The translations under genes and the position numbers were made by a program. The notes below the pieces were generated by a model. That model made no database searches. It saw nothing but the letters and a program-made list of their open reading frames with translations, and had not been told where the DNA came from. Below, one piece after another: positions 1,143 to 18,005 of a stretch of 64,000 nt of DNA. This DNA is from Halorientalis litorea (GTDB taxonomy: Archaea > Halobacteriota > Halobacteria > Halobacteriales > Haloarculaceae): contig NZ_CP095482.1 of assembly GCF_023028225.1 (NCBI RefSeq), forward strand, positions 2,480,001 through 2,544,000. Reading direction: 5' to 3'. Every line of letters starts with the position of its first letter. The stretch's first letter is position 1.

Positions 1143-2711
1143 ATGTCTCTATCGGGAATACTGCCGAACTTGAGGGGTGACGAGCGCGGGGTGACGAGCC
1201 CGCTGGGCTACCTCCTCGTTATCTCGATGGTGATACTCGCGGTCACGTCCATCGTCGTCATCGGGTCCTCCGCACTGGGAGACACACAGAGCCAGTCGGA
1301 ACTCCGCCGTGCCGAACACTCGATGACGCTGTTCGACTCCCGGGCTGCGATGGTCGCGCTGGGTACCTCGGACTCACAGACCCTCGATTTCGGGACGGAC
1401 AGCGGCCAGTTCTACACACAACCCGACTACGGCTGGATGGCTATCAAACACGTCGACTACGACAACGCCGGGAACACTCAAGAGATATACAACGAGTCGC
1501 TCGGGGCGATGGTCTACGAGAACGAGAACACCCGGATGGCGTATCAGGGTGGTGGCGTCTGGCGCCTCGACCGGGACGGGGCCGCGACGATGGTGTCGCC
1601 GCCGGAGTTCCACTACCGGCAGGCGACGCTGACGCTGCCGGTCATCCGCCTGCTCGGTGAGACGGCCGGGAGCGGGGCACCGTCCGTCACCGTGAGTTCC
1701 AGACAGCAGGCACGGCTCCTGTTTCCCAACCAGTCGGCCAGCTACAACACGCTCCAGTCGAACTTCACGAACCCCGTCGAGAACGGGACTATCTACGTGG
1801 ACGTTCACAGTCGGTACTACGAGGGCTGGGCACAGTACTTCCGCCAGCGCACTGCCGGTGACGTGCGGACGTTCCACAACAACAACACCGCCCGCATCGA
1901 ACTCGTCAGTCTCGGCGGGAGCATCGGGCGGTTCCAACTCCCCAGCGACAGCGGTGCGGGCAGCCAAGACGTCAGTGCCGTCGCGACGGGCCACCCAATT
2001 CAGAATTTCAACCTCACGCTCGAAGAGGGGGGCAACTCAAACGGTGAGAGTCACTGGTCGCTCTACAGCGTGACCGACAAAGACGAGTTCGAGATACACG
2101 TCGAGATGGACAACGGCGGTGGTTGTCGCCCGCTCAACCTCCAGTACTACTACCACAACACCTCGACCGGTACGTATCAGGAGTGGTCGACGAACCTCGA
2201 CCACACGTCTAGCTCGGCCTACCAGTGTACGGAAGACGGGAACAAGATAGACGAGTTGCACCTCAACCTGACGAGTACGACTGAGACGGTAGAGTACACC
2301 GACATCACGGTGAACGGGGCGGCCTCTGGCAAGTACTGCTTCGCAAGCTCCATCGACAACAACTCGCCGGACGAACCCGTGACGGTCGACGACCACGGAA
2401 CCTACGACGACCAAGCGACGAACCCAGAGTTCAACGCTGGTAGTGACCTCACGACGGGAGACACTGCGACTCTCAACTGGACGACCAACCACTACATCTC
2501 GAAGTTGGGGCAGGACTTCGAGTTCCAGGTCACGGACAGTCAGGGCGCGAGTGCCACGAACTGTGAGGGGAACACGAACAACAACGGCGGGTCACAGCTC
2601 GTCGACGAGGACCTGTCGTTCGGTGTCCTCGACTACGCCGAGGCGGAAGGCGCGCAGTTCATCACGTATCTGCACGTCACCGAAAACGAGGTCGAGGTCG
2701 ACTTCGACTGA
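1143..2711 (+). CDS. DUF7289-like pilin-like surface protein (module A, plus-strand gene)
   Basis: The product is 522 residues. It begins with a short charged stretch ending DERG (residues 13-16), then a single hydrophobic segment (about 18-42) opening with VTSPLGYLL. This looks like an archaeal type III (prepilin) signal, in which the prepilin peptidase cuts before the hydrophobic helix. The remainder is a long extracellular part rich in Thr, Ser and Asn with many N-x-S/T sequons. The motif W229-x-x-YF (EGWAQYF) recurs at the same relative place in three other proteins of this locus. The gene converges on the module A operon with 33 nt between stop codons. No enzymatic domain is visible. A role as a large minor pilin or surface subunit is inferred from the signal and context. 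Confidence 0.75.
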   Translation: MSLSGILPNLRGDERGVTSPLGYLLVISMVILAVTSIVVIGSSALGDTQSQSELRRAEHSMTLFDSRAAMVALGTSDSQTLDFGTDSGQFYTQPDYGWMAIKHVDYDNAGNTQEIYNESLGAMVYENENTRMAYQGGGVWRLDRDGAATMVSPPEFHYRQATLTLPVIRLLGETAGSGAPSVTVSSRQQARLLFPNQSASYNTLQSNFTNPVENGTIYVDVHSRYYEGWAQYFRQRTAGDVRTFHNNNTARIELVSLGGSIGRFQLPSDSGAGSQDVSAVATGHPIQNFNLTLEEGGNSNGESHWSLYSVTDKDEFEIHVEMDNGGGCRPLNLQYYYHNTSTGTYQEWSTNLDHTSSSAYQCTEDGNKIDELHLNLTSTTETVEYTDITVNGAASGKYCFASSIDNNSPDEPVTVDDHGTYDDQATNPEFNAGSDLTTGDTATLNWTTNHYISKLGQDFEFQVTDSQGASATNCEGNTNNNGGSQLVDEDLSFGVLDYAEAEGAQFITYLHVTENEVEVDFD

Positions 2712-2744: not shown

Positions 2745-3509
2745 TCACCGCTCTATCTCTATCTCTATCGGGTGGACCACGACGAACAGTTTGTCGCGGT
2801 TCTGGAGTTCACACTCGACCCTGTCGCGCTCGCCGGGAAGGGGCACCGTGGAACAGGACACGCCCGGTCGCCGGTCGAGGTACCGCTCCCACGTCTCGTT
2901 GTTCTGTGTCGTGACGTTGACCCACATCGACCCGCTGTCGTACACTGACGCGTCACCGCGGTGGATGATGTTGGGCGTCCCACGGACCGCCCGGATGCGT
3001 GCCGTACTCCCGCCGAACGACTCCGGCGGCCGCGCGATGGTCCGTACGATGGGGATGTAAGTTTGGTTCGGGTCGAAGTCCATCGGCGGGTACTCGACGA
3101 AGAGCCCGCCGTTTCGCTGGCTCCGGAGGACACCGCCGAACGTGTAGTCGATTGTCGTCCCCTCGTCGCGCACACTCCGCCAGCGCACGACCCGTGAGGT
3201 GACGTTGACGCTGAAGTTCGTCCCCGTTCCCGAGCGAGCACTGACGTTGATGTTTGCGACCTCGACTGTGTTCAACTGCGCGTCCTGCAGGTTTATCTCG
3301 GTCGCACGACTCGGCGCGCCTTCACGGTGGACGTCGTTGAGATTGTCCGCGAAGACGTCGAAGGCCCGCTCGGCGTTGTTGATTTGCTCGTCGTATCTGA
3401 CGTCTTCGAGCGTACTGACGCCGGCTATCGAGACGATAGCAACCGTCGTCGCGACGAGGCTGAAGATGAGGATGAACCCGATAACGTCGCTCACCGCGCG
3501 CTCGTTCAT
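2745..3509 (-). CDS. DUF7289-like pilin-like protein (module A, gene 5)
   Basis: The product is 254 residues, with NERAVSDVIGFILIF at the N-terminus. This is a typical haloarchaeal pilin-like start, with a short charged leader followed by one hydrophobic helix that packs into a pilus-like filament. The exposed part contains several N-x-S/T sites and the W207-x-x-YL motif shared with the other DUF7289-like proteins here. The C-terminus, HPIEIEIER, closely matches that of its module B counterpart (GIEIER). It is the last gene of the five-gene module A operon, and its start overlaps the preceding stop by 4 nt. A minor-pilin role is inferred. Confidence 0.8.
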   Translation of the reverse strand: MNERAVSDVIGFILIFSLVATTVAIVSIAGVSTLEDVRYDEQINNAERAFDVFADNLNDVHREGAPSRATEINLQDAQLNTVEVANINVSARSGTGTNFSVNVTSRVVRWRSVRDEGTTIDYTFGGVLRSQRNGGLFVEYPPMDFDPNQTYIPIVRTIARPPESFGGSTARIRAVRGTPNIIHRGDASVYDSGSMWVNVTTQNNETWERYLDRRPGVSCSTVPLPGERDRVECELQNRDKLFVVVHPIEIEIER

Positions 3510-3973
3510 CGACGCTCACCCCCTTCGAGACGGAGGTGGCCACCGGCCGTGTAGTTCACCATCACCTGTCCACCGGTAATCTCGGTACCGTCCACGGTGG
3601 TCCGGTTGCTGAACTCGACTCGAACCGTGACGTCCTGTTGCTGGGACCTGAGACGGACGTACGGGTCGGCTTGCTCGACGATGGCGACGGTGTAGCCCGA
3701 CCCGGCGACGGATTGGGGGAACGAGCGGCTAATCGAGACGGCCGTGTTCCGGTCGCCCGACTGCACGAGTCTGTCGGTCGCTTCCACGTCCGAGGCCAGT
3801 TGCTGCCCGATGACGCGAAGTTCGACCTCCGCGGCTTGCTCGCGCTGGTCGCTGACGAACCCGGCACCTGCGATGAGCAACCCCGTGACGAGAATCGTCG
3901 CGATGCCGATACCGAGCGTGTAGCTGAGAGTAATCGACTGCCCGCGCCTGTCGGACTCGAAGCGGTCAGTCAT
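3506..3973 (-). CDS. DUF7266-like pilin-like protein (module A, gene 4)
   Basis: The product is 155 residues. DRRGQSITLSYTLGIGIATILVTG forms a charged leader plus hydrophobic helix near residues 8-32. It is followed by a region (EQAAEVELRVIGQQLASDVEATDRL) that looks helical, like the pilin helix continuation, and then a small beta-rich domain with N-x-T sites. I placed the start at MTDRFES, which overlaps the upstream stop by 8 nt; six further codons upstream are open but belong to the overlap. Its module B counterpart has the same N-terminal plan but is three times longer because of a PKD domain. Confidence 0.8.
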   Translation of the reverse strand: MTDRFESDRRGQSITLSYTLGIGIATILVTGLLIAGAGFVSDQREQAAEVELRVIGQQLASDVEATDRLVQSGDRNTAVSISRSFPQSVAGSGYTVAIVEQADPYVRLRSQQQDVTVRVEFSNRTTVDGTEITGGQVMVNYTAGGHLRLEGGERR

Positions 3974-4910
3974 CGCTCTCACCCGGAGCAACCCGTAGCT
4001 CCGTCGCGTACGATATCACCTGATTGTTGTACGCCACGCTCACGTCGGCGGCGTAGACGGCCGGTTGGATGTAAGGCTGGTCGGCGACCCACGGGTTGTC
4101 GTCTTCCACGCCCGAGAAACTCTCGTTGACGATGGTGCTGTACGTCCCGTCCGTGATTATCTTCGCGTTCCTGAATTCGAGGGTGTCCGCTCCAGAAAGC
4201 CCTCTCTCACGGAACACGTCGACGTATGGACAGTCACTGTCGTCGACTGTTCCCGCCGAGACGTTCACCCAGAACGGTGTGGTAGAGTATCCGCAGGACC
4301 CGATGGTCACGCCGTTCTCGATGACCTCGACGTCGCCGGTGTCGGTCACGTTCAACTGCCACGTGTCGGTGCCGTTCGTGGCGACGACGCTGAACTCCGG
4401 GCTAGCGATGGGAAGGAGGCTCGTATCGACGTTCCCGACGTTCACCTGCAACTCACGCGCGCCGTCCGGATTCTGGGCTAGCACCCAGTTGTTCGCGTGG
4501 TCGTCACTCGTGAAGTTGCGACTCTCGTTCGTCTGCTGTACCAGCGTCCCCTCGTCGTACCGGCGGAGCGTGTCGTTGACAACCTGCCCGTCGAACAGTT
4601 GGTGTTCCGTCGCCACCGACGAGACGTTCTCGAACCCTCTGGTGAGGTTCCGGTCGACGGCGTCGTACGACGACGAGTTCGTCGTGTTGTACGTGTTGAC
4701 GTACGTGACCAACTTCTCGGTGGCCGTCTCGACGACGTTCGCGTGTGCGATGGCGTCGGAGGTGGTCGTGCTTTCGCTCCGGGTAGCGAGGTTCTCGGTG
4801 AAGATGACGGAGTTGAGCACCAGCGCGAGGCCGATGAACGCGACGGCGAGTGCGAACCCCGTGACCAGCAGTATCTGCCCTCGGCGGGTCCGGTCGCTCA
4901 GATTCGCCAT
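3966..4910 (-). CDS. DUF7261-like pilin-like protein (module A, gene 3)
   Basis: The product is 314 residues. RTRRGQILLVTGFALAVAFIGLALVLNSVIFTE (about residues 8-40) gives a charged leader and one membrane helix ending in the conserved-looking LNSVIFTEN. The rest is extracellular, Asn/Thr/Ser rich, with two Cys (around SCGY and DCPY) that could form a disulfide. The module B gene at 11250-12212 has the same architecture, including LNTVLFTST. Start and stop overlap both neighbours, which points to translational coupling. No catalytic motif is seen. Confidence 0.8.
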   Translation of the reverse strand: MANLSDRTRRGQILLVTGFALAVAFIGLALVLNSVIFTENLATRSESTTTSDAIAHANVVETATEKLVTYVNTYNTTNSSSYDAVDRNLTRGFENVSSVATEHQLFDGQVVNDTLRRYDEGTLVQQTNESRNFTSDDHANNWVLAQNPDGARELQVNVGNVDTSLLPIASPEFSVVATNGTDTWQLNVTDTGDVEVIENGVTIGSCGYSTTPFWVNVSAGTVDDSDCPYVDVFRERGLSGADTLEFRNAKIITDGTYSTIVNESFSGVEDDNPWVADQPYIQPAVYAADVSVAYNNQVISYATELRVAPGESDD

Positions 4911-5482
4911 ACGACCACCTCGACTCGGACGACGTTGTACGTCGGCGTGTCCGGCGCGTAGTCCGGTGCGTAGAAGTTCCCCGCCAGTGGTGTCGACGTC
5001 CGGGCACCGGTGTGGTCGTAGAGCCTATCGTCGTCGGTCAGGATGACCGTCTTGGCCGACCGGACGGCGTTGTCGCTCGGCTGCCCGCGGTACACCATCT
5101 CCGTGGTCCGCCGGGCGTCTGTCGGGGTGTAGTACGTGAGATAGACGTTGTACGCGATACCGCGCTCGCCGAAGGCCCGTTCGAGGCGGTCACCGAACGC
5201 GTTCGGGGGTGCCCGACTCGTGTAGAAGTCCTCGCCGCTCGAGTTGTAAAACCGGTCGTCAGACGCGTTCCAGAACAGGACGGCACGCTTCAAATCGCCG
5301 GCCTGTGCCGCACCCGCGAGGACGCCCTCGACGCTCGCCTGCTGTTGGTTCTCGACGTGCTGGCTCGACGTGCTCGCCGACAGCGGCGTGACGGCGGTCA
5401 TCTGGAGTGCGAACAGGACGCTCGTCAGCAACAGCAACCCGGCGATGATGGATTCGAGCGTGTGTACTTGTCCTCGGTCCAT
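4898..5482 (-). CDS. DUF7288-like pilin-like protein (module A, gene 2)
   Basis: The product is 194 residues. The start MDRGQVHTLESIIAG gives the haloarchaeal pilin-like signature R-G-Q-x-x-T-L-E followed by a hydrophobic helix to about residue 32. The Glu inside the first residues of the helix matches the conserved Glu5 position of type IV pilins that pairs with the N-terminus of the neighbouring subunit. The distal part has MVYRGQPSDNAV, closely matched by MVYRGEPSDNAV in the module B paralogue, which marks a conserved surface loop. I preferred ATG 5482 to the ATG six codons upstream because it directly begins the charged leader. Confidence 0.8.
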   Translation of the reverse strand: MDRGQVHTLESIIAGLLLLTSVLFALQMTAVTPLSASTSSQHVENQQQASVEGVLAGAAQAGDLKRAVLFWNASDDRFYNSSGEDFYTSRAPPNAFGDRLERAFGERGIAYNVYLTYYTPTDARRTTEMVYRGQPSDNAVRSAKTVILTDDDRLYDHTGARTSTPLAGNFYAPDYAPDTPTYNVVRVEVVVWRI

Positions 5483-5483
5483 G

Positions 5484-6074
5484 TTACCACATTTCAACAA
5501 CGAGCGTCGCGTCGGTGTCGTTCAATTCGACGACTCTCCGTGCGGTGACCGTCGTCCCGGAACGTTGCGGTGGCGCGGGGCCGATGGCCGTCCGGGTTTC
5601 GGAACTGTCACAATCGCCGCTGTCCTTCTCGACGAACTCGGGCGGTGAACTGTCCTCGTCCCAACAGAGGACGTTGCCCCCGTCGGCGTCGTTCGTCAGG
5701 TTCGACTCGATGCTCACGTTCGCCAACTGCGTGTTCCTGACGCCGATTCGCTCCGTCAGGTTGTTGCCGGTGAACCCACAGTACCCCGGGCTCGTGTCCT
5801 CGAAGAACTTCACGGTACACGTCGTGTTGACGACGTGGGGTGTCTTCGGGTCACCGAGCAGTCCTTCCGAGAGACTGTCCGCAACGCGATTTGCGGTGAC
5901 TATCTCCTCCTGTCCGCCTTCGACGAACGGGGAGATCGTACCCGGGATGAACAGCAGGACGGACGTCAGCGCGAGCAGGAAGATACTCACTCCGACGGCG
6001 AAATCGAGCGTTGTCTGTGCCCGTGTTCGACGACCAGTCCGCGCGCTCGACCCGACGACTCGCCGGTCGGACAT
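5484..6074 (-). CDS. DUF7287-like pilin-like protein (module A, gene 1)
   Basis: The product is 196 residues. A longer charged leader (RRVVGSSARTGRRTRAQ) precedes TTLDFAVGVSIFLLALTSVLLF, a hydrophobic helix with an acidic residue (D24) near its start, as in type IV pilins. The extracellular part has four Cys in pairs (TTCTVKFF, YCGF, VLCWDE, GDCD), suggesting disulfides, plus several N-x-S/T sites. It is the first gene of the module A operon and its stop lies 1 nt from the next start. The promoter should be in the 340-nt gap upstream, where CTTAAAATAG at about 6160-6170 (minus strand) is the best TATA candidate, implying a leader of roughly 60 nt. Confidence 0.78.
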   Translation of the reverse strand: MSDRRVVGSSARTGRRTRAQTTLDFAVGVSIFLLALTSVLLFIPGTISPFVEGGQEEIVTANRVADSLSEGLLGDPKTPHVVNTTCTVKFFEDTSPGYCGFTGNNLTERIGVRNTQLANVSIESNLTNDADGGNVLCWDEDSSPPEFVEKDSGDCDSSETRTAIGPAPPQRSGTTVTARRVVELNDTDATLVVEMW

Positions 6075-6416: not shown

Positions 6417-6488
6417 GGGCTCGTAGATCAGCGGTAGATCATCCCCCTGGCACGGGGAAGGCCCGGGGTTCAAATCCCCGCGAGTCCA
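6417..6488 (+). tRNA. tRNA-Ala, anticodon GGC
   Basis: A complete cloverleaf can be drawn: a 7-bp acceptor (GGGCTCG with CGAGTCC), a D arm GATC/GATC, an anticodon stem TCCCC/GGGGA enclosing CTGGCAC, a 5-nt variable region, a T arm CGGGG-TTCAAAT-CCCCG, and discriminator A. The anticodon is GGC, read as Ala. The acceptor contains a G3:U70 wobble pair, the established identity element for alanyl-tRNA synthetase. CCA is not encoded, and no intron is present. Confidence 0.95.
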
Positions 6489-6704
6489 CTCCCTCGTTTC
6501 CTCGCGTTGTCCCGCTCGTTCTACTCGCGGGACCCCCACGAGTCCATCGAAGCAGGTTTTCGACCGAGACTGCCGACCGTCGGACGCGACTGGGTGCTCC
6601 ATCGAGCCGTTCACGGACGGCAATTCCGTGAGTCCGTCGAGGGGTGTCGCTGAGTGGTCCCGGGGTAATTCGCCGGGCGTGACGGCCAGCGACCTCGCCG
6701 ATGG

Positions 6705-6748: not shown

Positions 6749-8944
6749 ATGGCCGATTACGGGTCCGCGGCGGGCGACGAACGGGGGGTATCGGAGGTAC
6801 TGGGGTTCGCACTACTCATCGGGATGGTGTCGATAGGCGCGCTGTTGGTGGTCGTCTACGGCTCCGCGTCCATCGAACAGGTCCAAGACCAGACGGACAA
6901 GCGGACCGTCGAAATCGCGCTTCAGGAAGTGGACTCACAGCTCACCTCGCTCTCGAATCAAGCGGACGTGACCCAAGTCGAGTTCGAGATGGCGAACCTG
7001 AATCCGGGACGGGTCGACATCATACGGGCCGGGCACGTGAACATCACGGTCAATCAAAACAAGACGTGTAGCCTCGGGGCGAGCTATCCGAGTCGAGACG
7101 GCGTGCCACTGACGTCGATTCGGTACGAGACACAGGACGAGACGGTCATCGCCTACGAGGCCGGCGGCGTGTTCAGACAGGAACGCTCGAACCGGAGTTC
7201 GACTGTCACGTCCCCGGATGCGGACGTTCAGAACGGTGTCATACAGTTACAGTTGCTCAACCTGACCGGCGAAATCGACGAGTCCCGGAACACGGCGTTC
7301 CTCAACGTGTCCTCGTCCAGTCGAGAGACCGACCGACTCAACGACCAACTGTTCCAGGGAGAGTGCGTGCGCCCGGACAACGTGACCCTGCAGGTACAGA
7401 GTACGTTCTTCAGGGCCTGGGGTGACTACTTCGAGGAACAGACGGACCGGCCGGTGCAGACCTACGAGAACAACCAGACGGTTCAGGTGTTCTTCGGACA
7501 GCAGGACCTCCCGGAGGCGACCAACGACGAACTCAACCGCGTCGTCAATCTCTCCGCGAGCGCGTCGTACATGAACGAGGTGAACGTCACGGCGGAGAAC
7601 ATCTCCATCTCGAAGAACGCGACGACGTCATACCGCGTCTCGACGCGCCCCATCGGGAACGGGTCGACCAGTATCGCCAACAAGACGACGTTCAAAACAG
7701 CCGACCTCGGGAACTCGAACCCCACCGATGTCGTGTACGTCCTCGACACGTCCGGGTCGATGTCCGGGACGAAAATAACCGACGCGAAGCAAGCGGCCAT
7801 CGACTCGCTGTCCGTTCTGAACACCACCGACCGTGCTGGCGTCGTCGAATACAACAGCAGGGCAGACATGCTCACCTCGGGTGGACAGTTCCTGACGAAT
7901 ACCCTTCGTGGCCCCAACAGCGTCGAGAGTACCATCAACGGACTCTCGGCGGGCGGTGGCACGTGTATCAACTGTGGGATTCGGAAGGCACTGGACATGT
8001 ACGCGACGAGTAGCAACCAGACGCGGAACAAGACCATTATCCTCCTCAGTGACGGCCGTAACGACGTCTCGTGGGAATCGACGCCCAACATGAACAGTAG
8101 AACGCGGGACATGGCACGCCGAGCGGCCGCCCAAAACGTCACTATCTACGCTGCCGGGTTCGGTACACAAGCCGACGTTAACGAGTGCCTATTGGGTGGT
8201 CGCGGAGTTAGCTGTTCCCAACCGGGGATTACCAACATCACCGGCGGCGAGTACAACTTCTCCAGTAGCCCCGACGAACTTCGCCAGTTCTTCAGGGATT
8301 CTGCCACGAACATCGTCGAGCAGGAGCGGATTACGAACGTCCCGCTGACGGTGAACGCCACTCGGAACAACGCCGTCCAGCCACCCTTTATCGCGGGTAA
8401 CGACGAGGACATCGCCCGCATTCGGAACGGTGGCCGCGCGTTCCCGAACGTCAACGACCCGACCGCACCGTCGCAGTTCCAACAGACGTTCATCGTTCGG
8501 AACGGTGACAGCGTGGAACTGAACGCGACGTATACGGCCTGTGAGGAGTACGAGACGGTCCCGTTGACGGCTGGCGGCACGCCGGTCGCACGGTGTGCCA
8601 ACGTCAGCAACGCCGACCTCATCGGCCCGGACCACATCGGCGTCTATCGTGACGGCTACGACGCAGAACAGGGGCCGCGCCCGCTCCTGACGGACAACTC
8701 GCCATCGTGGGACGACACGATGTACGAGAAACTCGAATCCGAGAACCTCCTCGACAGCAACAACCACACCCAGTTAGAGAGCAATCAGGTGCTGGTCGTG
8801 TTCAACTTTAGCGTCGAGAGTGGGCACGACTGGGACTGGAATCGGATGCCGGTCCTCTACGAGGTGGGCCTCTCGGAGGGCGAAGCACGGCCACCCGTGG
8901 GGTACCTCCAAATCCGGGACGTGCGGATAGAAGACGAATCCTGA
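6749..8944 (+). CDS. Pilin-like surface protein with von Willebrand factor A domain (module B, plus-strand gene)
   Basis: The product is 731 residues. The leader GDERGVSEVLGFALLIGM gives a type III signal (charged DERG, then a hydrophobic helix with Glu near its start), so it should be cleaved and inserted like a pilin. Residues about 45-320 resemble the DUF7289-like region of the 1143-2711 protein, including W224-x-x-YF. A VWA domain follows (about 328-525), with the metal-ion site D333-T-S-G-S, GGGTCINCG and LLSDGRND. A beta-rich C-terminal region with N-x-S/T sites ends the protein. I chose ATG 6749 because it opens the leader directly; 16 further codons upstream are open but unlike a leader. 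VWA domains bind proteins or matrix, so a tip adhesin role is a reasonable inference. The gene converges on the module B operon, 48 nt away. Confidence 0.8.
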   Translation: MADYGSAAGDERGVSEVLGFALLIGMVSIGALLVVVYGSASIEQVQDQTDKRTVEIALQEVDSQLTSLSNQADVTQVEFEMANLNPGRVDIIRAGHVNITVNQNKTCSLGASYPSRDGVPLTSIRYETQDETVIAYEAGGVFRQERSNRSSTVTSPDADVQNGVIQLQLLNLTGEIDESRNTAFLNVSSSSRETDRLNDQLFQGECVRPDNVTLQVQSTFFRAWGDYFEEQTDRPVQTYENNQTVQVFFGQQDLPEATNDELNRVVNLSASASYMNEVNVTAENISISKNATTSYRVSTRPIGNGSTSIANKTTFKTADLGNSNPTDVVYVLDTSGSMSGTKITDAKQAAIDSLSVLNTTDRAGVVEYNSRADMLTSGGQFLTNTLRGPNSVESTINGLSAGGGTCINCGIRKALDMYATSSNQTRNKTIILLSDGRNDVSWESTPNMNSRTRDMARRAAAQNVTIYAAGFGTQADVNECLLGGRGVSCSQPGITNITGGEYNFSSSPDELRQFFRDSATNIVEQERITNVPLTVNATRNNAVQPPFIAGNDEDIARIRNGGRAFPNVNDPTAPSQFQQTFIVRNGDSVELNATYTACEEYETVPLTAGGTPVARCANVSNADLIGPDHIGVYRDGYDAEQGPRPLLTDNSPSWDDTMYEKLESENLLDSNNHTQLESNQVLVVFNFSVESGHDWDWNRMPVLYEVGLSEGEARPPVGYLQIRDVRIEDES

Positions 8945-8992: not shown

Positions 8993-9799
8993 TTACCGTT
9001 CGATTTCGATGCCGAGTACGGCACGTCTGATGTAGACGACACCGCTCTCACCGACATCGCAGACGTACGTGTCGTCCTCGACACTCGACTCCTCCCACCC
9101 GTTCTCGTCACGGGTGAAGTACCGGCCCCACCCTCCATCGAACGTCGAGTTGATAGTCACGTTCAGTTGCGTCCCGTTCGCGGCCGTGTTGGCGGTGGCC
9201 CCGGTTCGGTTCTCTGGGTAGAGCAGACTGGAGTTGTGCTGCCGTCCGGAGATTCGGGCGACGCCACCGCTGACGATTCGCTCCGTGTTACCGGTCAACC
9301 GGACTACCGAGACGACGGCGTGGCCGTCACCACAAGTGAAGCCCGGTTCGACTTGCATGATGCTGCTGTTGCTGCCGATGGCACCCCGGAACGTCGCACC
9401 GCTCTCGTACCCGATGTGCTCGCCGCTAATCCGGTACTGCAGGCGGCGTATCTCCACGCTCGTGTTGAAGTTCGGTCCAGAGGACCGGTGTATTTCGAAC
9501 GTCATGTTCGGTCCGTCTACGAGTCGCAGACTCCCACTCCGGAGTTCGATTTCGCTGGTCCGCCGCTCGGCGGTGCCGGTTTCCAACTCCTTGAAGTTCT
9601 GTCCGAGCAGGACGAACGACCGCTCCGTGTTCGTGGCGAGTTCGGCCTCCCGGGCGTCTTCGAGCGCGCCGAACCCGAACGTCGAGACGAGTGCGACGGA
9701 CGTGATGATGACGGCGAACGCCAGCACGAACCCGACGAGGTCACTGACCGCCCGGTCGGACTCCGGTTCGCTGCCACTGTGCTTTTTTCGCCCAGTCAT
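8993..9799 (-). CDS. DUF7289-like pilin-like protein (module B, gene 5)
   Basis: The product is 268 residues. A charged leader (TGRKKHSGSEPESDRA) is followed by VSDLVGFVLAFAVIITSVALVSTFGF, a single hydrophobic helix. The exposed region has several N-x-S/T sites, two Cys (FTCGDG and YVCDVG) and W224-x-x-YF near the C-terminus. It ends with the sequence GIEIER, like the module A paralogue at 2745-3509. It closes the module B operon, its ATG overlapping the upstream stop by 4 nt. A minor-pilin role is inferred from the signal, the duplication and linkage to pilB/pilC. Confidence 0.8.
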   Translation of the reverse strand: MTGRKKHSGSEPESDRAVSDLVGFVLAFAVIITSVALVSTFGFGALEDAREAELATNTERSFVLLGQNFKELETGTAERRTSEIELRSGSLRLVDGPNMTFEIHRSSGPNFNTSVEIRRLQYRISGEHIGYESGATFRGAIGSNSSIMQVEPGFTCGDGHAVVSVVRLTGNTERIVSGGVARISGRQHNSSLLYPENRTGATANTAANGTQLNVTINSTFDGGWGRYFTRDENGWEESSVEDDTYVCDVGESGVVYIRRAVLGIEIER

Positions 9800-11253
9800 G
9801 GCAGTCCACCGACCTCCTCGGTGAATCGGGTCGTGTACGTCTCGCCACCGACGCGATAGCGGACACCGATGGTGAAATCGGGGTCGGCCGGGAGTCCCTC
9901 GACAGCACGGTACTGGATAGCGAGGTTGCCTCCGTCCTCTACGTCTATCTCGACCCGGTCTCGCGGGTCGAAGTCACACTCGTAATACGTTCCCGAACCG
10001 TAGATAGCGTACGCGGACATCGATACCCCTCCATCAGGAATTGTGAGGCCCTCACAGCCGAGGTCTTTCCGCCCGATATACACCTGTTCGTCCTCGGTAT
10101 CAGTGTAGTCGTTGTCCTCGTTTTCGTTCGTGTTGATACGAATCTCGGGGAAATAGTAGAAATTGCTGTTGATACAATTTCCGAAGAAATTGTACGAGGT
10201 ACAGACGTATCGGTCCTCTGCAATCATCTCTCCGCCTGTGCCTTCGGGGTCGAAGAATACACCGGTGATAGTGATGTCGTTGCTGTGAGTGTTCTCGAAC
10301 CGAACCATGATATCGTCGCCATCGAAGTCGACGTTTTGCCCGGCCCGCGTCCTGTCGTCGGCTGGCGTACGTGTGAGCGTGAGTGGTGCTAGTCCGGCGA
10401 CAGTGATGTTATGCGAGTGCCACGTCGAAGCGTTCTCTTCGTCGGTCACTCGCAAGGTCACGTTTTGGGGGCCGTAGTTCCCACCGCCGTACGTGTGGGT
10501 GGTCGTCGCGGTGTTCAGGTTCTGTTCCTCGTAGGTTCCGTCCCCGTCGAAGTCCCAACTGTAGTTCAGGCCGGGACTGGCGGGATTGTCGGGGTCCGGG
10601 TCCTCGGCATTGGCGGTGAACGTCACGCCCCGGTTGGTGTCGGGGTACTCGGGGTCGACGGTGAACGAGACGTTCGTCGGCGGGAGGTTCGTCTCCCCGA
10701 TGATGCTCCCGCCCGTTCGCTGCTTGGCAACGTCGCCGCCGATACCCAACCGCAGCGGCGCGTCAGTCGCCCCTGTCTCGTCGATGGTTCCGGGAGCGGA
10801 ACTCCCGTTCCATTCGAGACGGTAGTGGCTGGCACTCACCGTCGAGATGTTCACGTCCGTCTCGTTGACCGAGAGCGGGATGTTCCGAACCACGTCGAGC
10901 CGCGTGACCTCCAGTTCGAGACACGAGTTCGGCGTCGACCGTAGCTCGGTACACTCGGACCCGTTGACGATGCGGACGGAGTAAGACGACCCGGAGACTC
11001 GCTCCGGGAGGTCGACCTGTATCGTCGCCGACCCGTTCCCGGCCGACAGTCGCTGGAGTTGGGTTATCGTCTCGGCGAGTTCGTTCCCGATGGTGTCCAG
11101 TCCCGACTGTGCGGCGTACTCCTGCTGGTTGTTGAGGTACGACCCGCCCGCGACGAGCAAACCGGTGATGAGGATGGTCGTGATACCGATAGCGAGGATG
11201 TGGTTGACGAGCGACGCCGCCCCCCGTCGGTCCGTGCGTATCGTCCATCTCAT
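9796..11253 (-). CDS. DUF7266-like pilin-like protein carrying a PKD domain (module B, gene 4)
   Basis: The product is 485 residues. The N-terminal part (RTDRRGAASLVNHILAIGITTILITGLLVAGG) matches the module A DUF7266-like protein, which has only 155 residues. From about residue 190 a PKD-type immunoglobulin-like domain is visible: PPTNVSFTVDPEYPD, then LNYSWDFDGDGTYEE and NVTLRVTDEENAS, the WDFDGDG core being diagnostic. A further beta-rich region with four Cys and an acidic NENEDNDYTDTEDE stretch precedes the C-terminus. I placed the start at MRWTIRTD, overlapping the upstream stop by 4 nt, because the 32 upstream codons lie in the neighbouring gene and lack a leader. PKD domains usually mediate protein or carbohydrate contacts at the cell surface. 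Confidence 0.8.
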   Translation of the reverse strand: MRWTIRTDRRGAASLVNHILAIGITTILITGLLVAGGSYLNNQQEYAAQSGLDTIGNELAETITQLQRLSAGNGSATIQVDLPERVSGSSYSVRIVNGSECTELRSTPNSCLELEVTRLDVVRNIPLSVNETDVNISTVSASHYRLEWNGSSAPGTIDETGATDAPLRLGIGGDVAKQRTGGSIIGETNLPPTNVSFTVDPEYPDTNRGVTFTANAEDPDPDNPASPGLNYSWDFDGDGTYEEQNLNTATTTHTYGGGNYGPQNVTLRVTDEENASTWHSHNITVAGLAPLTLTRTPADDRTRAGQNVDFDGDDIMVRFENTHSNDITITGVFFDPEGTGGEMIAEDRYVCTSYNFFGNCINSNFYYFPEIRINTNENEDNDYTDTEDEQVYIGRKDLGCEGLTIPDGGVSMSAYAIYGSGTYYECDFDPRDRVEIDVEDGGNLAIQYRAVEGLPADPDFTIGVRYRVGGETYTTRFTEEVGGLP

Positions 11254-12212
11254 GGGTAGATGCTCAGGTTGTGCCTCCGCTCGTAGTCTATCTCGGTCGA
11301 GGAGTACGCCATGGTGACGTTCGTGCTCCAGATGGCCGGCACTTGGCACGGGTCGGTGAAGCCGGTCACCGCCGGGTCGCCGCAGAAGTCGTACGACCCG
11401 CCGAAGTTCGCGCTCACGTTCGACCGTGCCACGAGACTGTACCGACCGTTAGCTCTGCCGCCGTCAGATATCTCGACACTGTAGGGCGGGTCGAGGTTCT
11501 CGGTCGCGTTGAACGCACACTCGCTGTTGAAACTCTCTCCGTCGAGTACGTCGAGAAGCACCCGACCACGGACCGCGAAACACTGCACGTTCCCCGTGTT
11601 GGGGCCGTGTGTCCGCTCGGTACTGATGTCGACCTTCGTGGCTCCTCCTGTATTGTTACGCTGGATGCCAATGTCTACTGATTCGCTCGCGTTTCGTATC
11701 GTGATATTGAATTCGTCGCTGTTCATCCCTGAGACGTTCAGGTTGACGACGAACCGGCCAACCGCCACTCGGTCGCTGTTCTCGACAACCTCCCAGTCCG
11801 AGACACTGGGTGTCGTCGGTGACTCGAAGGTCCCGTCCTCGCTCTGGACGACGCGTTGGCCGTACGTGACGTTGTTGTACGAGACGTTCACGAACACCGG
11901 TCGGCTCACCGTGTAACTCTCGCGCAATAGCCGCGTGTAGTTCGTGACGTTTCTGACGACGCTGTCACGGAGTTGTGGCCGCGAGAAGTTCTTGTCCCGG
12001 TGGTTCATTCGGAGGACCAGCGACCGTGTGCCCTCCCGTGCCGTCTGGTCGAACCGGACGGCGTCGTCGCTGGCGTCGACCGTCACGTCCGTCGTCACCG
12101 TACTCGTGAAGAGGACGGTGTTCAGGACGACGGTGAGGCCGATGATGATGAGCGCGAGCGAGACGGCCCCGACGAGGATGAGTTGCGCCCTGCGGTCGTC
12201 GGTCGCTACCAT
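11250..12212 (-). CDS. DUF7261-like pilin-like protein (module B, gene 3)
   Basis: The product is 320 residues. VATDDRRAQLILVGAVSLALIIIGLTVVLNTVLFTS is a charged leader plus one membrane helix, parallel to the module A protein at 3966-4910. The extracellular part contains four or more Cys (QCFAV, ECAFN, FCGDPA, PCQVP), which could form disulfides, and many N-x-S/T sites. Starts and stops overlap both neighbours by 4-7 nt. No enzymatic motif is visible. Confidence 0.8.
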   Translation of the reverse strand: MVATDDRRAQLILVGAVSLALIIIGLTVVLNTVLFTSTVTTDVTVDASDDAVRFDQTAREGTRSLVLRMNHRDKNFSRPQLRDSVVRNVTNYTRLLRESYTVSRPVFVNVSYNNVTYGQRVVQSEDGTFESPTTPSVSDWEVVENSDRVAVGRFVVNLNVSGMNSDEFNITIRNASESVDIGIQRNNTGGATKVDISTERTHGPNTGNVQCFAVRGRVLLDVLDGESFNSECAFNATENLDPPYSVEISDGGRANGRYSLVARSNVSANFGGSYDFCGDPAVTGFTDPCQVPAIWSTNVTMAYSSTEIDYERRHNLSIYP

Positions 12213-12826
12213 ACTGTCAGGCGCACCTCCACGACGTTGTACACCGGTCCGTCCATGGCGTTCGGGATCGGGTAGTACCCTCGGTCCCCGGTGGCGTTCG
12301 TCCCGAGGTCGGTCAACTGCACCCGCGTCGCGTTCGGCCCCGACAGCGTCTGGTTGTCGTACAGCGTCACGCGGTTGGTCGCCGTCACGGCGTTGTCCGA
12401 CGGTTCACCACGGTACACCATCGGAAGCGTCTCCGTCCCCGACGACTCGTTCTGGTACCGGAGGACGATGTTGTACGTGCGGCCCCGTGACTCGAAGGTC
12501 TGATTCAACACCTCGCCCAGTTGTCTCGGTGGTTTCCGGTTCCCGTACCCGATTTCTTCGTTGACCGCGCCCACGAACGCGAGCCTGTTGCGCGACCAGT
12601 ACCGGACGTACTCGGAGAGGCCGAACGTCTCGTTCTGTGCCGTCAGCCTGAGCACGTCGTCGGCCTCTGTCTGGACTTGTGACCGTATCTCGGGGTCGAC
12701 AGTCCCGCCCGTCGTCGGCGTGATGATGATGGCCTGTATCGCAAAGAGGACTGCAGAGAGGATAACCACCGACCCGATGACGGCCTCCAAGGTGAACGCC
12801 TGTCCCCTGTCTTCGCCCGTCACCAT
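12206..12826 (-). CDS. DUF7288-like pilin-like protein (module B, gene 2)
   Basis: The product is 206 residues, starting MVTGEDRGQAFTLEAVIGSV. The R-G-Q-x-F-T-L-E pattern and the following hydrophobic helix mirror the module A gene at 4898-5482. MVYRGEPSDNAV is shared almost identically with that paralogue. I chose ATG 12826, which overlaps the upstream stop by 7 nt; seven further codons upstream are open but not needed. It probably forms part of a minor-pilin complex with its operon partners. Confidence 0.8.
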   Translation of the reverse strand: MVTGEDRGQAFTLEAVIGSVVILSAVLFAIQAIIITPTTGGTVDPEIRSQVQTEADDVLRLTAQNETFGLSEYVRYWSRNRLAFVGAVNEEIGYGNRKPPRQLGEVLNQTFESRGRTYNIVLRYQNESSGTETLPMVYRGEPSDNAVTATNRVTLYDNQTLSGPNATRVQLTDLGTNATGDRGYYPIPNAMDGPVYNVVEVRLTVW

Positions 12827-13302
12827 ACTTTCACCACCAAGCGACAACTCGGGTCACAGCGCGTCCGATTCGAGAGCGAAACGATACGCGCACGCGCCGC
12901 CGCTGGCTGGTTTCGGCTGTCTTTCTCCGTCGCGAGTGGCGTCCCGTCGACGGTTACCAGCGACCGACTGCCCCCTTCCCTGACGGTTATGTTGATGGCT
13001 GTCCCGCGTGTGAACCCATATTGGTCCCGGAGTTGCGACTGGTTCTGTGAGAGCGTCGCGTTGAGTTTTGTCTCGTTGAGAATATTCTCGCCCTCCGCCG
13101 TCGCGTGTTCTCGAATCAGGTCTTGGCTGAGCCTATCCGCTCGCATCCCGTCGCTGTCGTCTATCCCCGCGGTGAACGGTTCGAGATAACTCGGGAACAA
13201 CCCGAAGACGAACGTCACCGTGATGAGGAACAGCGAGATACCGAGCGCGAAATCCTGAAGCGTCTGCCCCTTCCTGTCACCCCTAAATGCTGACTAACTC
13301 AT
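12820..13302 (-). CDS. DUF7287-like pilin-like protein with in-frame TAG at codon 3 (module B, gene 1)
   Basis: The frame encodes DRKGQTLQDFALGISLFLITVTFVFGLFPS, the same leader-helix plan as the module A gene at 5484-6074, then a short extracellular region with two Cys near the end. The only well-placed start is ATG at 13302, correctly spaced from a strong TATA element, but it reads ATG AGT TAG: the third codon is amber. Between that stop and the hydrophobic helix there is no ATG, GTG or TTG. A GTG at 13218 exists, but starting there would cut the helix in half. The gene is therefore either inactivated, read through, started at a rare codon, or affected by a sequencing error. The downstream genes remain intact. 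Confidence 0.65.
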
Positions 13303-13429: not shown

Positions 13430-15463
13430 TCACCCGACGGCAATCCACGTGATGAGCGCGAACGTGGGCAGGATGACCGCGAACTTCACCCCCGAGATGA
13501 GGTCGACGTTCCGGATGTAGCCGCCGATGAACGACGACATGATGGCCTGCAGCGTCACTGCGTGGAAGAACAGCAGCGAGAGCAGTTCGGTGTCGACACC
13601 GCCACCGAAACTCTGTCCGCCGCCGGGGGCAGCACCACCGCCGCCACCGCCGCCGGTGTTCGCAAGCCCGGCCATCACGTCGAGGAACTGCGTCTTCAGC
13701 AGTGCCATGACGCCCAGCAGCGTCATGTAGGTCATGATGATGATGACCAACTGCATCCGCGTGCGGGACTTGCGCTCGCGGTCGATGTCGTCTTGATTCT
13801 CCGAGGCCTGTGCGGCCGTCGTCAGCACGTCCTCGATTTGACTGGACGCCTCCTGTGCCTTGCTGATGAGTTTGACCGTCCGGGCTAGCCGCGGGATGTG
13901 GTACTCGTTGTTGAACTCCCGCATCGCGTCCTTGAGGCTGGTCCCGTACTTGACCTTCGCGTACATCGTCTCGAAGTCCTCGGCCAACCGCCCCGAAGAC
14001 GTGTTCGAGACGGTGTTCAGCGATTCGAGGAGCGTCAGCCCCGTGTCGTTGGCACTCGATAGTTTCCGCAAATTCTCCGAGAGTTGTGTCACGACACCAC
14101 GTCGCGACCGGACGTTCCACTCGTAGAAGATGGTCAGCGGGAGGAAGTTGATATACAGCGGGACGTACACCCAGAAGAACGTCGACATGACTGGCTTACT
14201 GACCATCCCGTCGATGCTGAGCGGTGCGAAGCCGGCGACGACCGACCCCGCCATCACCACTATCGTCAGCGGAACTGTCAGGCCCAACACCACCGTCGGG
14301 TGGTCACGGAAGAAGATGTGTGGCTTCTTCAGTATTTGGCCCAACTCGTAGGACCGTTCTCCGCTCTTCACCTTGTCGAAGATGCCGTACCCGCCGGTGA
14401 AGTTCTCGACGAGGCCGAGGTTGAAGATACCCAGCCCCTCTTGGACGACCACGTCGTCGCGTTGCCCGTCCGGCGTGAGGTAGCCGTCGCCGATTTCGTC
14501 CTGCGTGACCGTCGACACCATCACGAGGAACCCGACCCCCGTGAGCGGAATCAGCCCGTACACCGTGCCCAGCAGGAGCATCTGCTGGGACTTGCCCATC
14601 ATCTGCATGATGACGAGGATGATGATGAGCAAGAGGGGGAACAGCGAGAGCGTCATGTACATCTCGCCGAACAGTTCCATCGTCTCTAGCACTTGCTCTT
14701 GCTCCTGCTTGGCGGTCCGCATGTGCTTGTCCTTCTGGTCTTCGAGGAAACTCGTCATGTCACCGCCGGAGTTGACGATGGAGAGCATGTCCGTCAGGAA
14801 CTGCGCGAGTTCGTCGCTCGGCGTCTGGAGTGCTTGGTTCCTGATGGCCGTCCGGTAGTCCGTATCGAAGTACTCGGTTTCGAGGACGAGCGACTGGAAC
14901 TCTTGGGCAACCTCGCCGTACGTGTCGTCGGCTTTGGCCATCGCCTGCAGGATTTCGAGTTGGTTCAACCCCCCGACCGACAGCGCGTACATGAACGAGA
15001 TGGAGTCCGACAGCAGGACGTTAATCTCGCGTTTCCGTCCGCCCGCCCGGAAGTACGGAATCGAGACCATCGACCCGAACCCGATACCGAAGCCGATGAG
15101 GCCGAAGACGATGCCGGTGATGAACACCAGAATCGGTATCTTCAGCGCGAGCAGGATTTCCGGAACCGACTCCACGGGAATCCCGAGCAGAGTCGGTGCG
15201 TCCTCGAGAAAGAGGACGAAGATGGCGTAGCCCAGAAGCGACCCCATTATCCACAACACGAGGCCCGCCAGCACGCCGACCCCCAACGCGCGCGCGACGA
15301 ACAACTCGACGTTCTGGGGCATACGCGCCTGCGCGAGTTTCTTCTCTACACCGGCCACGAAGTCGCTGTTCTCGTTGAACAGGTACTGATAGAGCGGGTA
15401 GAACGTGTCACCGAACGAGCCGCCGCCGCTGAACGACTGCCCGTCACGCGTGTCGAGACTCAT
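13430..15463 (-). CDS. pilC: PilC/TadC-type pilus platform membrane protein
   Basis: The product is 677 residues with about nine hydrophobic segments. Two type II secretion F-type domains can be seen: one near residues 150-280 (VLLSDSISFMYALSVGGL, then FLTDMLSIVNSGGD) and one near 465-590 (LSENLRKLSSANDTGLTLL, then ARTVKLISKAQEASSQIEDVL). This two-domain arrangement is usual for archaeal pilus assembly platforms, which anchor the ATPase and guide pilins. A Gly-rich stretch (about 599-617) separates the last helices. The start lies 1 nt after the pilB stop, so the pair is an operon. The gene symbol follows general haloarchaeal use; paralogue number cannot be assigned. Confidence 0.9.
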   Translation of the reverse strand: MSLDTRDGQSFSGGGSFGDTFYPLYQYLFNENSDFVAGVEKKLAQARMPQNVELFVARALGVGVLAGLVLWIMGSLLGYAIFVLFLEDAPTLLGIPVESVPEILLALKIPILVFITGIVFGLIGFGIGFGSMVSIPYFRAGGRKREINVLLSDSISFMYALSVGGLNQLEILQAMAKADDTYGEVAQEFQSLVLETEYFDTDYRTAIRNQALQTPSDELAQFLTDMLSIVNSGGDMTSFLEDQKDKHMRTAKQEQEQVLETMELFGEMYMTLSLFPLLLIIILVIMQMMGKSQQMLLLGTVYGLIPLTGVGFLVMVSTVTQDEIGDGYLTPDGQRDDVVVQEGLGIFNLGLVENFTGGYGIFDKVKSGERSYELGQILKKPHIFFRDHPTVVLGLTVPLTIVVMAGSVVAGFAPLSIDGMVSKPVMSTFFWVYVPLYINFLPLTIFYEWNVRSRRGVVTQLSENLRKLSSANDTGLTLLESLNTVSNTSSGRLAEDFETMYAKVKYGTSLKDAMREFNNEYHIPRLARTVKLISKAQEASSQIEDVLTTAAQASENQDDIDRERKSRTRMQLVIIIMTYMTLLGVMALLKTQFLDVMAGLANTGGGGGGGAAPGGGQSFGGGVDTELLSLLFFHAVTLQAIMSSFIGGYIRNVDLISGVKFAVILPTFALITWIAVG

Positions 15464-15464
15464 C

Positions 15465-18005
15465 TCACTCCCCTTCTCCTGCTTCCGTTCCGGCCTTGGT
15501 CACGAACTGGCCGAAGTCGATTTCGGCGTCTTCGTCTTCGTCGTCGTCCTGTTGGACCGGTTCGATGTTCTCCTGCGTCTCGATACCACCCAGTGCCTTC
15601 ACGATTTCCGGCGTCTCCATGCTCTTGTACTGGTCGAACATCGGCTGTGCGTTCTCCAGAATCTCGTTCGTCTCTTCGAGCATCTCCTCACTCGCCGACG
15701 GCCGCGGGACCATCTCCTCTTTCTCGGGGTCGATGTCGATCATGACCGACTCCATGTCCCGCAGGTCTTCGAGGCTCTCTTCGAGTTTGTCGTGGGCGAT
15801 GAGCGTCAGGATGGTGTCCGGGTCGTTGATGAACGCCTGAATCGTCGCCGCCACCTGCTGGTAGGTGTTGATGCCGTTCTGGATGAGGTGGGCCAGCACG
15901 ATTTTGCGCTTGAACAACTCCTCGTCCAGTCGTTCCTGTGTCCACCCACGGTCGAACTTGATTTCCTCCAGCGTGTTGGACTGGCCCATCTGGATGAACG
16001 TGTCCGTCTCGGCCTGCCACTGGTAGACGTCCCTGACGTTGATTTCGTCGTTCTCGGCGGAGTACTCGTTGATTTCGGTCAGGGTCTTGCTCCGGCGGAC
16101 CTTCTTGCCGTCCGTCCGGCTCTGGGTCTGGATAGACACCAAATCGAGTGCCGTGAACAGCGTCTTCGAGACGTTGATTGGGTCGGTAGTGAACCGCTTG
16201 ATGACCTCGCCCACCGAGTCGGCGTGGAACGTCGTGTAGGTGGTGTGGCCCGTGGACATGACCTGGAAGAGGGTCCGGCCCTCCTCGCCACGAATCTCAC
16301 CCATGACGATGTAGTCTGGTCGCTGTCGCAGTGCGGCCTCCAGCAGGTCGAACTCGTCCACGTCGCCCGTATCGTCCTCACCGAAGGACGGCCGGGTGAC
16401 GGACGCGACCCAGTTGCGCTGCGGCAGTTCGACCTCGCGGGTGTCCTCGATGGAGACGATTTTCGCGTTCGAGGGGATGAACAGCGAGACGGCGTTCAGC
16501 GAGGTGGTCTTCCCCGAGGCAGTACCGCCCGCGAAGATGAGCGACTTGTGGTTCTCGATACAGAGCCACAGGAACGCCATCTGGTCGAGTGAGAAGGTGT
16601 TCCAGTTGATGAGGTCGATGGGCGTGAACGGCACGTCCTTGAACTGCCGGATGGTGTAGTTGGTCCCGTGGTCGGACACTTCCGCACCGAGGGTCAACTG
16701 CGAGCGTGACCCGTCCGGGAGCGTCGCGTCGACCTGTGGCTGACGCTTCGAGATACCCTTCCCGGACCGCTGGGCCAGTTTCACGACGAAGTCGTCGAGT
16801 TCCTCCTTGCCGTGTTCGACGTTCGAGATAATCTGTTCGTAGTCGGTGTGGTAGACGAACACCCGACTGTTGTACCCGTTACACGAGATGTCCTCGACGT
16901 TGATATCGTGTTTGATGGGGTCGATTTTGGCGAACCCGATGAAGTCCCGTTTCAGGTTGTACAGGAGTTTCTCGACCTGATACTCGTTGAGTGTGCTCGG
17001 GTCTTCCTCGATGATTGCCGGCTCGGGTCGCGCGCTGATACCGTCTAGCCCGCTCTCCTCCGCTGACTCTCCCTCGGGCCCCATCCCCAGCATCGACTTG
17101 ACGGCGACGAGCGCGCCGCCGTCGCCGTTGGTGGAACTGCCGCTCGGACTCCCGCCGTCGTAGATGTCGTACCGTTCGAGCAGTCGCTCGGATTCGCGCT
17201 GGATGACCTCCGCCCGGTCGGACTCGTCGCCTTGGACTACGACATCGTCTTCGGAGTACTTGATGGCGGTCTTGAGTTTGCCGGAGAGGAAGTCCTGTAG
17301 GTCGCGCTCGATGGCGTTGAGGTACGGCTCGATGACGTAGTATTTCTTCTCGTTTTCCTTCCGCGAGTGGAAGATGATGACACAGGCGTATGGTTTGTTG
17401 ACCCAGTACCGTTCGAGTTCTTGGAAGTGCTTTTTCTTCTCGATGGGGACCGCCTTCTCGATGTCGTACCGGTTGGTGACCGTCGTGTTCCCGTTCACGT
17501 CCGAGAAGAACATGTCCTCGTCGAGTTCCTCGTTCACGTCGACGGTGAACTCGTCGACCGTCTCCGTAAGCGTACTGGCGATGTTCTCGGCGTTGCTCAG
17601 TATTCCTTCCGTGTCGTCGGGGTCGAACCCGAGGTACTCCTCCGGTTCGAACGGCTTTTTCTCCCCCTCGCTCGTCCGCGGCGGCTCGCCCTCGTCGTCG
17701 TAGTAGTGTTCGCGCTTGAAGTGTTCCCACGTGTACTCGCCCTTGCGCACCGGCATCTCCTCGGGGTTGAGTTCCCGCTGGAGCGGCTTGTAGATAGATT
17801 CGGCCGCCCGCGCCCCTCGTTGCAATCGCTCTTCGGTCTCCCGAGGGTCGAACCCGAGGAACTCCGTCCTGTCGAACGGACCGCCCGTGTGGAACTCCCG
17901 GCGAACGTCCTCCCACGTGTACTCGCCGACAGTGGCTCGCTCGACCCGGGCGAGGACTTCCTCGGCGTCCGACGGGTCGCCCCCCTCTTTGTCATCAGTT
18001 GCCAT
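15465..18005 (-). CDS. pilB: PilB/TadA-type pilus assembly ATPase
   Basis: The product is 846 residues, longer than many family members. The C-terminal half is a type II/IV secretion ATPase with Walker A GGTASGKT (493-500), a TRE-type motif EDTREVELPQR, and the Walker B region with MGEIRG (E570). His residues in TGHTTYTTFHAD belong to the conserved His box. The hexameric enzyme powers extension of pilus-like filaments. The acidic N-terminus holds two related segments (about 28-61 and 90-136), each beginning EYTWE and ending in LGFDP. The Asp/Glu-rich C-terminal tail is typical of a haloarchaeal protein. It heads the operon with pilC; a TATA-like element lies about 30 nt upstream. Confidence 0.92.
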   Translation of the reverse strand: MATDDKEGGDPSDAEEVLARVERATVGEYTWEDVRREFHTGGPFDRTEFLGFDPRETEERLQRGARAAESIYKPLQRELNPEEMPVRKGEYTWEHFKREHYYDDEGEPPRTSEGEKKPFEPEEYLGFDPDDTEGILSNAENIASTLTETVDEFTVDVNEELDEDMFFSDVNGNTTVTNRYDIEKAVPIEKKKHFQELERYWVNKPYACVIIFHSRKENEKKYYVIEPYLNAIERDLQDFLSGKLKTAIKYSEDDVVVQGDESDRAEVIQRESERLLERYDIYDGGSPSGSSTNGDGGALVAVKSMLGMGPEGESAEESGLDGISARPEPAIIEEDPSTLNEYQVEKLLYNLKRDFIGFAKIDPIKHDINVEDISCNGYNSRVFVYHTDYEQIISNVEHGKEELDDFVVKLAQRSGKGISKRQPQVDATLPDGSRSQLTLGAEVSDHGTNYTIRQFKDVPFTPIDLINWNTFSLDQMAFLWLCIENHKSLIFAGGTASGKTTSLNAVSLFIPSNAKIVSIEDTREVELPQRNWVASVTRPSFGEDDTGDVDEFDLLEAALRQRPDYIVMGEIRGEEGRTLFQVMSTGHTTYTTFHADSVGEVIKRFTTDPINVSKTLFTALDLVSIQTQSRTDGKKVRRSKTLTEINEYSAENDEINVRDVYQWQAETDTFIQMGQSNTLEEIKFDRGWTQERLDEELFKRKIVLAHLIQNGINTYQQVAATIQAFINDPDTILTLIAHDKLEESLEDLRDMESVMIDIDPEKEEMVPRPSASEEMLEETNEILENAQPMFDQYKSMETPEIVKALGGIETQENIEPVQQDDDEDEDAEIDFGQFVTKAGTEAGEGE

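Follow-up and report, generated by a model that had tools for sequence, protein, structure and literature searches.

A DUF7289-VWA modular minor pilin as a candidate tip adhesin of haloarchaeal type IV pili

Introduction

The closest described counterparts of the protein considered here are bacterial. In Streptococcus sanguinis, the minor subunit PilB joins a pilin to a VWA domain and PilC joins a pilin to Ig-like and ConA-like lectin domains, the two belonging to one predicted tip complex, PilABC (PMC9934059, PMC8179133). In Tad pili, the minor pilin CpaL carries a VWA domain and is predicted to lie at the tip, and deletion of cpaL raises surface-sensing output (PMC12607857). For archaea, the available portion of a survey by Makarova and colleagues describes arCOG02911 as a minor pilin of euryarchaeal clade-2 type IV pili (T4P), found in PilB3/PilB4-type loci, duplicated, 250-550 aa long and beta-rich; vWA proteins figure there in a regulatory role (ArnB) and, in bacteria, as TadG, and in that portion VWA or lectin fusions to arCOG02911 pilins are not described (Makarova 2016, PMC4858521). 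DUF7289, the domain at the centre of this study, and arCOG02911 are probably the same family. No tip adhesin of haloarchaeal T4P is described in the open-licence literature that was searched.

Here we consider 64,000 nt of Halorientalis litorea (GCF_023028225.1, contig NZ_CP095482.1, positions 2,480,001 to 2,544,000, forward strand), hereafter the window, in which an earlier note had proposed that a VWA protein with a pilin-type N-terminus might be a pilus-tip adhesin. The bacterial models chosen in that note, PilY1 and the streptococcal pilins, were the wrong ones: PilY1 is not a pilin, and streptococcal sortase pili have no relation to type IV pili. Apter analogues are the modular pilins PilB/PilC, which belong to T4P in S. 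sanguinis, and the Tad-pilus proteins TadG/CpaL. With PilY1/PilC of T4aP the haloarchaeal protein does share a VWA domain, a gene encoded with a minor-pilin cluster and a proposed tip position, but PilY1 combines a non-pilin N-terminus with a C-terminal beta-propeller, whereas the N-terminus of the VWA pilin is pilin-like and the protein has no Pfam match to the PilC/PilY1 beta-propeller.

Results and Discussion

Leader, helix and domains of the VWA pilin

The gene lies at 6749-8944 on the plus strand (ATG at 6749, stop codon ending at 8944) and encodes a DUF7289-VWA modular minor pilin of 731 aa. An upstream start at 6701 was rejected because translation from it would cross AT-rich, promoter-like DNA (TTTACATAA), and because a start at 6749 gives a leader as long as that of most orthologues. 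The predicted class III (prepilin) leader (6749-6787), reading ...AGDERG/VSEVLGFALLIGMVSIGALLVVVYGS and followed by a hydrophobic helix, would be cut by prepilin peptidase after G13, at DERG/VSEVLG. Each of the 20 orthologues has a site of the type [RK][GA]/ before a hydrophobic helix, with R12 unchanged throughout their alignment, bearing out the DERG motif and hydrophobic helix of the earlier note; the glutamate occupies mature position 3, not 5. Residues 13-43 are the sole TM-like stretch, and a long pilin alpha-1 helix is predicted at about residues 14-69 (6788-6955). Structure prediction, which by the earlier note would have told against the proposal had it lacked such a helix, places one of about 55 residues in both AlphaFold2 models (15-69 and 12-69), followed by strands, with moderate confidence.

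Residues 12-245 (6782-7483) match the Pfam domain DUF7289 (PF23960; E 6.9e-21, 75.3 bits against a curated cut-off of 27), which upholds the assignment of a DUF7289-like region. The W224-x-x-Y-F element that had been read from the sequence, here W224-G-D-Y-F, is a motif of the family: W224 does not vary among the 20 orthologues or among the 12 DUF7289 sequences that were aligned. A VWA domain follows at about residues 327-526 (7727-8326; Pfam 327-479, E 7.2e-17; model range 316-527, VIA-align Z 18-23), with the MIDAS motif DxSxS at D333-T-S335-G-S337 (7745-7759) and the other ligands at T405 (7961-7963) and D435 (8051-8053). All five residues are invariant in the 20 orthologues, so that the DxSxS...T...D pattern on a VWA fold is complete, as the earlier note had held; such invariance, in proteins only 31-39% identical to that of the window, is far beyond chance. 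The domain is predicted to bind a divalent metal.

Both a C-terminal beta-rich domain (about residues 540-731; 8366-8941) and two cysteine pairs had been overlooked. The domain is conserved and shows no relation to DUF7308 by hhalign (0.1%). The pairs, Cys107/Cys206 in the DUF7289 part and Cys598/Cys616 in the C-terminal domain, are invariant in the alignment of 20, and in most orthologues these four account for every cysteine beyond the N-terminal helix.

Set against S. sanguinis PilB, the protein is alike in its class III leader, pilin part and C-terminal VWA domain with an intact MIDAS, and unlike it in the extra domain that follows the VWA. The pilin parts are unrelated, being DUF7289 and DUF7266 in haloarchaea, where the machine is of the archaeal VirB11/TadC type; no Pfam match to the bacterial N-methylation motif family was found in the VWA pilin, whose pilin part is DUF7289. 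By this comparison of domains, the likeness lies in architecture and does not extend to homology of the pilin parts; given the lack of a homologous pilin moiety, the protein may work like the S. sanguinis PilB/PilC family without being a member of it.

The AlphaFold2 models were built from the window protein and four orthologues only and are hence shallow (pLDDT 63.6 and pTM 0.44 for the whole protein; 64.0 and 0.57 for residues 1-324). The modelled VWA part superimposes on solved VWA domains at Z 18-23, among them those of the pilus adhesins SpaC, Mfa5 and PitA, and sequence-profile matches in the PDB include SpaC, Mfa5, GBS104, RrgA and S. sanguinis PilB (7b7p). VWA domains are common in non-adhesive proteins too, and these structural matches speak to fold rather than function, as the VWA domains of many unrelated proteins score equally. 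Searches of PDB folds with the pilin part alone, from models of modest quality, gave a best Z of 4.2, which is chance level.

Locus and relatives

Immediately downstream, and all on the minus strand, lies a cluster of minor-pilin genes here called module B. A small DUF7289 minor pilin (8993-9799; Pfam 2.8e-41) is convergent with the VWA pilin gene at a distance of 49 bp and is followed by a DUF7266 minor pilin with a PKD extension (9796-11349; Pfam), a DUF7261-like minor pilin (11250-12212; 25.6 bits in Pfam, just below the cut-off, and a separate profile match), a DUF7288 minor pilin (12206-12847; genome-wide Pfam match 3.8e-59) and a DUF7287 minor pilin (12820-13218). Beyond these lie a PilC/TadC-like platform protein (13430-15463; NCBIfam FlaJ/GspF matches) and a PilB-type assembly ATPase of the VirB11/FlaI family (15465-18005; NCBIfam, T2SSE). 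In the region of the DUF7287 gene (12820-13290, minus strand) an N-terminal pilin-type segment, RGDRKGQTLQDFALGISLFLI, lies upstream and in frame, but no ATG, GTG or TTG separates it from the stop codon further upstream; this may reflect an error in the sequence, an unusual start codon or a lesion, and for want of a usual start codon the copy of the system in this genome may be impaired.

A paralogous cluster, module A (DUF7289-7266-7261-7288-7287; 2745-6074, minus strand; Pfam), comes without its own pilB/pilC. Convergent with it is a gene for a DUF7289-DUF7308 modular pilin (1143-2711, plus strand; Pfam), which fills at module A the slot that the VWA pilin fills at module B. The DNA that separates module A from the VWA pilin gene contains a tRNA-Ala gene (ggc; 6417-6489), at which cassettes may have inserted.

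Among 391 haloarchaeal genomes searched, 19 further full-length or two-piece orthologues were found, 13 in the window's own family and 6 in another family of the same order. Orthologues from named sources are those of Halapricum hydrolyticum, Haloprofundus marisrubri, Haloplanus ruber and a Halobacteriales MAG; a search of genome contigs returned four true orthologues and, below them, unrelated VWA proteins. No full-length DUF7289-VWA fusion from outside the class stands among the matches listed for a sample of the phylum, where DUF7289-only proteins do occur, and the viral collection gave one distant VWA match only, confined to the VWA part. These counts come from a one-protein query that undercounts distant fusions, from neighbourhoods of which some are clipped by contig ends, and from related genomes that are not independent.

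The DUF7287-7288-7261-7266-7289 cluster adjoins the VWA pilin gene in 20/20 loci (the 19 relatives and the window), and tadC(pilC)/pilB stand upstream of the cluster wherever the orthologue stretches reach far enough, so that the linkage to PilB/PilC, on which the earlier proposal relied, holds well beyond this genome. In 17 of the 20 (16/19 relatives plus the window) the VWA gene and the small DUF7289 gene converge, with 7-202 bp between them; in the remaining three (L046, L050 and L059) the VWA gene runs on the cluster's own strand.

Pilin identity and export

Profile comparison by hhalign with PilA-type N-termini gave 94% for the small DUF7289 pilin and 88% for the VWA-pilin family, the latter over only 21 columns, with controls below 1%; DUF7289 against DUF7266 gave 94%. 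Such homology to the pilins of the cluster bears on a rival reading, that the product is a membrane-anchored surface protein which merely happens to lie near a pilus locus, its helix an ordinary uncleaved anchor. VWA surface proteins are indeed common, and the VWA pilin has no match to Pfam Pilin_N; against this stand the conservation of the R[GA]/ site in 20/20 orthologues and the adjoining minor-pilin cluster in every locus, on the same strand in three, and we regard this reading as very improbable. Together the sequence evidence supports an archaeal modular pilin, a minor subunit of type IV pili whose MIDAS is intact.

The protein has 24 N-glycosylation sequons after residue 40, compared with 10.5 in shuffles (maximum 20), and the count exceeds every shuffle in 18/20 aligned sequences, L042 and L058 being the exceptions; this excess fits an exported protein. 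A cytoplasmic regulator VWA of the ArnB type was rejected in view of the pilin leader and the sequon enrichment. The genome as a whole has a single Peptidase_A24 gene, coding for prepilin peptidase, along with six ATPases of the T2SSE type, four VWA genes and 13 matches to Pilin_N.

A partner pilin with a PKD or lectin extension

The DUF7266 pilin of the cluster differs sharply according to whether a VWA pilin is encoded beside it: its tail measures 278-743 aa in 20/20 VWA-linked clusters and 6-29 aa in 68 other clusters (Fisher p 5e-19, shared ancestry ignored), the sole apparent exception being the separate module A of L046. PKD domains were found in 21/21 long-tailed DUF7266 proteins scanned (the 20 that are VWA-linked and L076), and a carbohydrate-binding domain in 9/21 (Laminin_G_3/ConA-like in 6, malectin in 2 and ricin-B in 1, with families counted separately on the assumption that no protein has two). 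The DUF7266 protein of the window itself has a weak PKD match (E 1.1e-5) and about 200 residues without assignment, with no lectin recognised. As in S. sanguinis PilC, a partner minor pilin of the locus carries an Ig-like (PKD) domain and, in relatives, a ConA-like lectin, but the copy in the window, with its PKD and about 200 unassigned residues, is unlike PilC in having no recognised lectin. The bulky domains of both haloarchaeal pilins, as of PilB and PilC, would best fit a tip, and by this analogy the PKD-extended DUF7266 pilin is predicted to form a second arm there.

Exchangeable passengers in the DUF7289 slot

A further 60 stretches were centred on DUF7288, which is present in 73/79 sampled genomes, and a large DUF7289 protein lies within 9.5 kb in 38/64 clusters. 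The passengers in this slot include DUF7308, DUF7305 and CARDB/Ig arrays, with other VWA arrangements elsewhere, and one DUF7305 copy also matches the ice-binding-like adhesive domain pAdhesive_15. At L188 and L194 the protein in the same slot retains DUF7289 and the C-terminal domain (E 2e-12 and 3e-8) without a VWA; the VWA thus behaves as a removable insert. In a FastTree of DUF7289 domains, a quick tree whose support values are local only, the large pilins fall apart from the small ones, L207 excepted, and the VWA and CARDB forms group apart from the DUF7308/DUF7305 forms. At L207 (6937-9213, minus strand) it is the cluster's DUF7261 minor pilin that carries a fused VWA, with an intact MIDAS, apparently a separate graft.

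Several loci showed other arrangements. A DUF7289 protein of 2267 aa with CARDB repeats lies between two minor-pilin clusters at L200 (7524-14327). At L166 (11950-13374), L156 (6964-9009) and L199 (2234-4843), DUF7305 overlaps an ice-binding-like adhesive match or is accompanied by bactofilin/FapA-like stretches, a hint of a beta-solenoid adhesin. Minor-pilin clusters without pilB/pilC in reach, like module A, occur at L159, L161, L175 and L196; clusters of this kind would need machinery encoded elsewhere.

The variety of passengers also bears on the reading that the VWA pilin primes or anchors assembly at the envelope and never reaches the tip, its VWA binding the S-layer or other pilins. Minor pilins prime assembly in bacteria, a small and a large DUF7289 paralogue are encoded as a pair, and bacterial TadG was once proposed as a pilus anchor (PMC4858521). 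However, the VWA is dispensable, as L188 and L194 show, and passengers vary widely, unlike what a conserved assembly role would lead one to expect; we consider an anchoring or priming role improbable.

Comparison with Tad tips and the question of mechanosensing

The arrangement resembles that of TadG/CpaL and of the KilN 'Tips' of Myxococcus, in which a large minor pilin with a variable C-terminal domain (VWA in CpaL) is encoded with smaller minor pilins (PMC12607857, PMC12075869), and the Tad/Kil systems likewise have several interchangeable tip cassettes and a related class of ATPase and platform (PMC12075869). There are differences: the VWA of CpaL is split by a beta-rich insert, and the haloarchaeal cassettes, unlike TadG/CpaL, combine the large pilin with five others of small or middle size. 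No Pfam match to Tad/TadE at E <= 0.01 was found in the VWA pilin or in nine pilin-like neighbours at the locus.

This likeness is one ground for a different emphasis, in which the VWA pilin acts mainly in mechanosensing or in the control of pilus dynamics, its tip VWA reading tension or contact and restraining a response as proposed for PilY1 and CpaL. The architecture equals that of CpaL/TadG, a minor pilin with a VWA at the predicted Tad tip (PMC12607857), and the conserved cysteine pairs could set mechanical stability as in PilY1; yet no sensing pathway was seen next to the locus, and the lectin/PKD arms, together with swaps to ice-binding-like, CARDB and DUF7308 passengers, point to binding. 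Sensing as the main role seems unlikely, and would in any case be compatible with a pilin at the tip.

A probable two-armed adhesive tip

We consider it likely, on support that is strong but indirect and by analogy with the bacterial systems, that the VWA pilin is a modular minor pilin at the pilus tip, where its VWA would form one arm for binding and the PKD/lectin pilin would supply the second. Its leader would be cut by the prepilin peptidase, for which the genome has a single Peptidase_A24 gene, and its alpha-1 helix and DUF7289 head would then enter the complex of module B minor pilins (DUF7287, 7288, 7261, 7266-PKD and 7289), with the adjacent PilB/PilC assembling the pilus. Incorporated into the filament in this way, the VWA pilin, by virtue of its bulk, would cap it and display a divalent-metal-binding VWA domain able to engage a ligand, while the PKD-extended and often lectin-bearing DUF7266 pilin would show a second arm, giving a two-armed adhesive tip. 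Placement at the tip is suggested by the bacterial parallels.

The variable slot and the clusters without pilB/pilC nearby lead to a wider reading, to which we give roughly even chances: that haloarchaeal pili carry exchangeable two-armed adhesive tips, drawn from paralogous cassettes and a variable DUF7289 pilin (VWA, DUF7308, ice-binding-like DUF7305 or CARDB arrays), the VWA cassette always coming with the PKD/lectin arm; on this reading they would have converged on the VWA and lectin tip of streptococcal T4P and on the swappable tips of Tad/Kil pili. Both the DUF7266 PKD/lectin partner and the interchangeable DUF7289 slot, with its clusters lacking pilB/pilC nearby and its resemblance to exchangeable Tad-pilus tips, are new beyond the earlier note.

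Conclusions

The VWA pilin is a good candidate for a tip adhesin of haloarchaeal pili, with residues that can be tested (D333, S335, S337, T405 and D435), and its locus offers a partner pilin, lectin-bearing in some relatives, and a set of naturally exchanged passengers. If the proposal is true, archaea and Gram-positive bacteria would have independently put VWA and lectin modules on unrelated pilin scaffolds, and pilus tips would be swapped as cassettes in archaea too.
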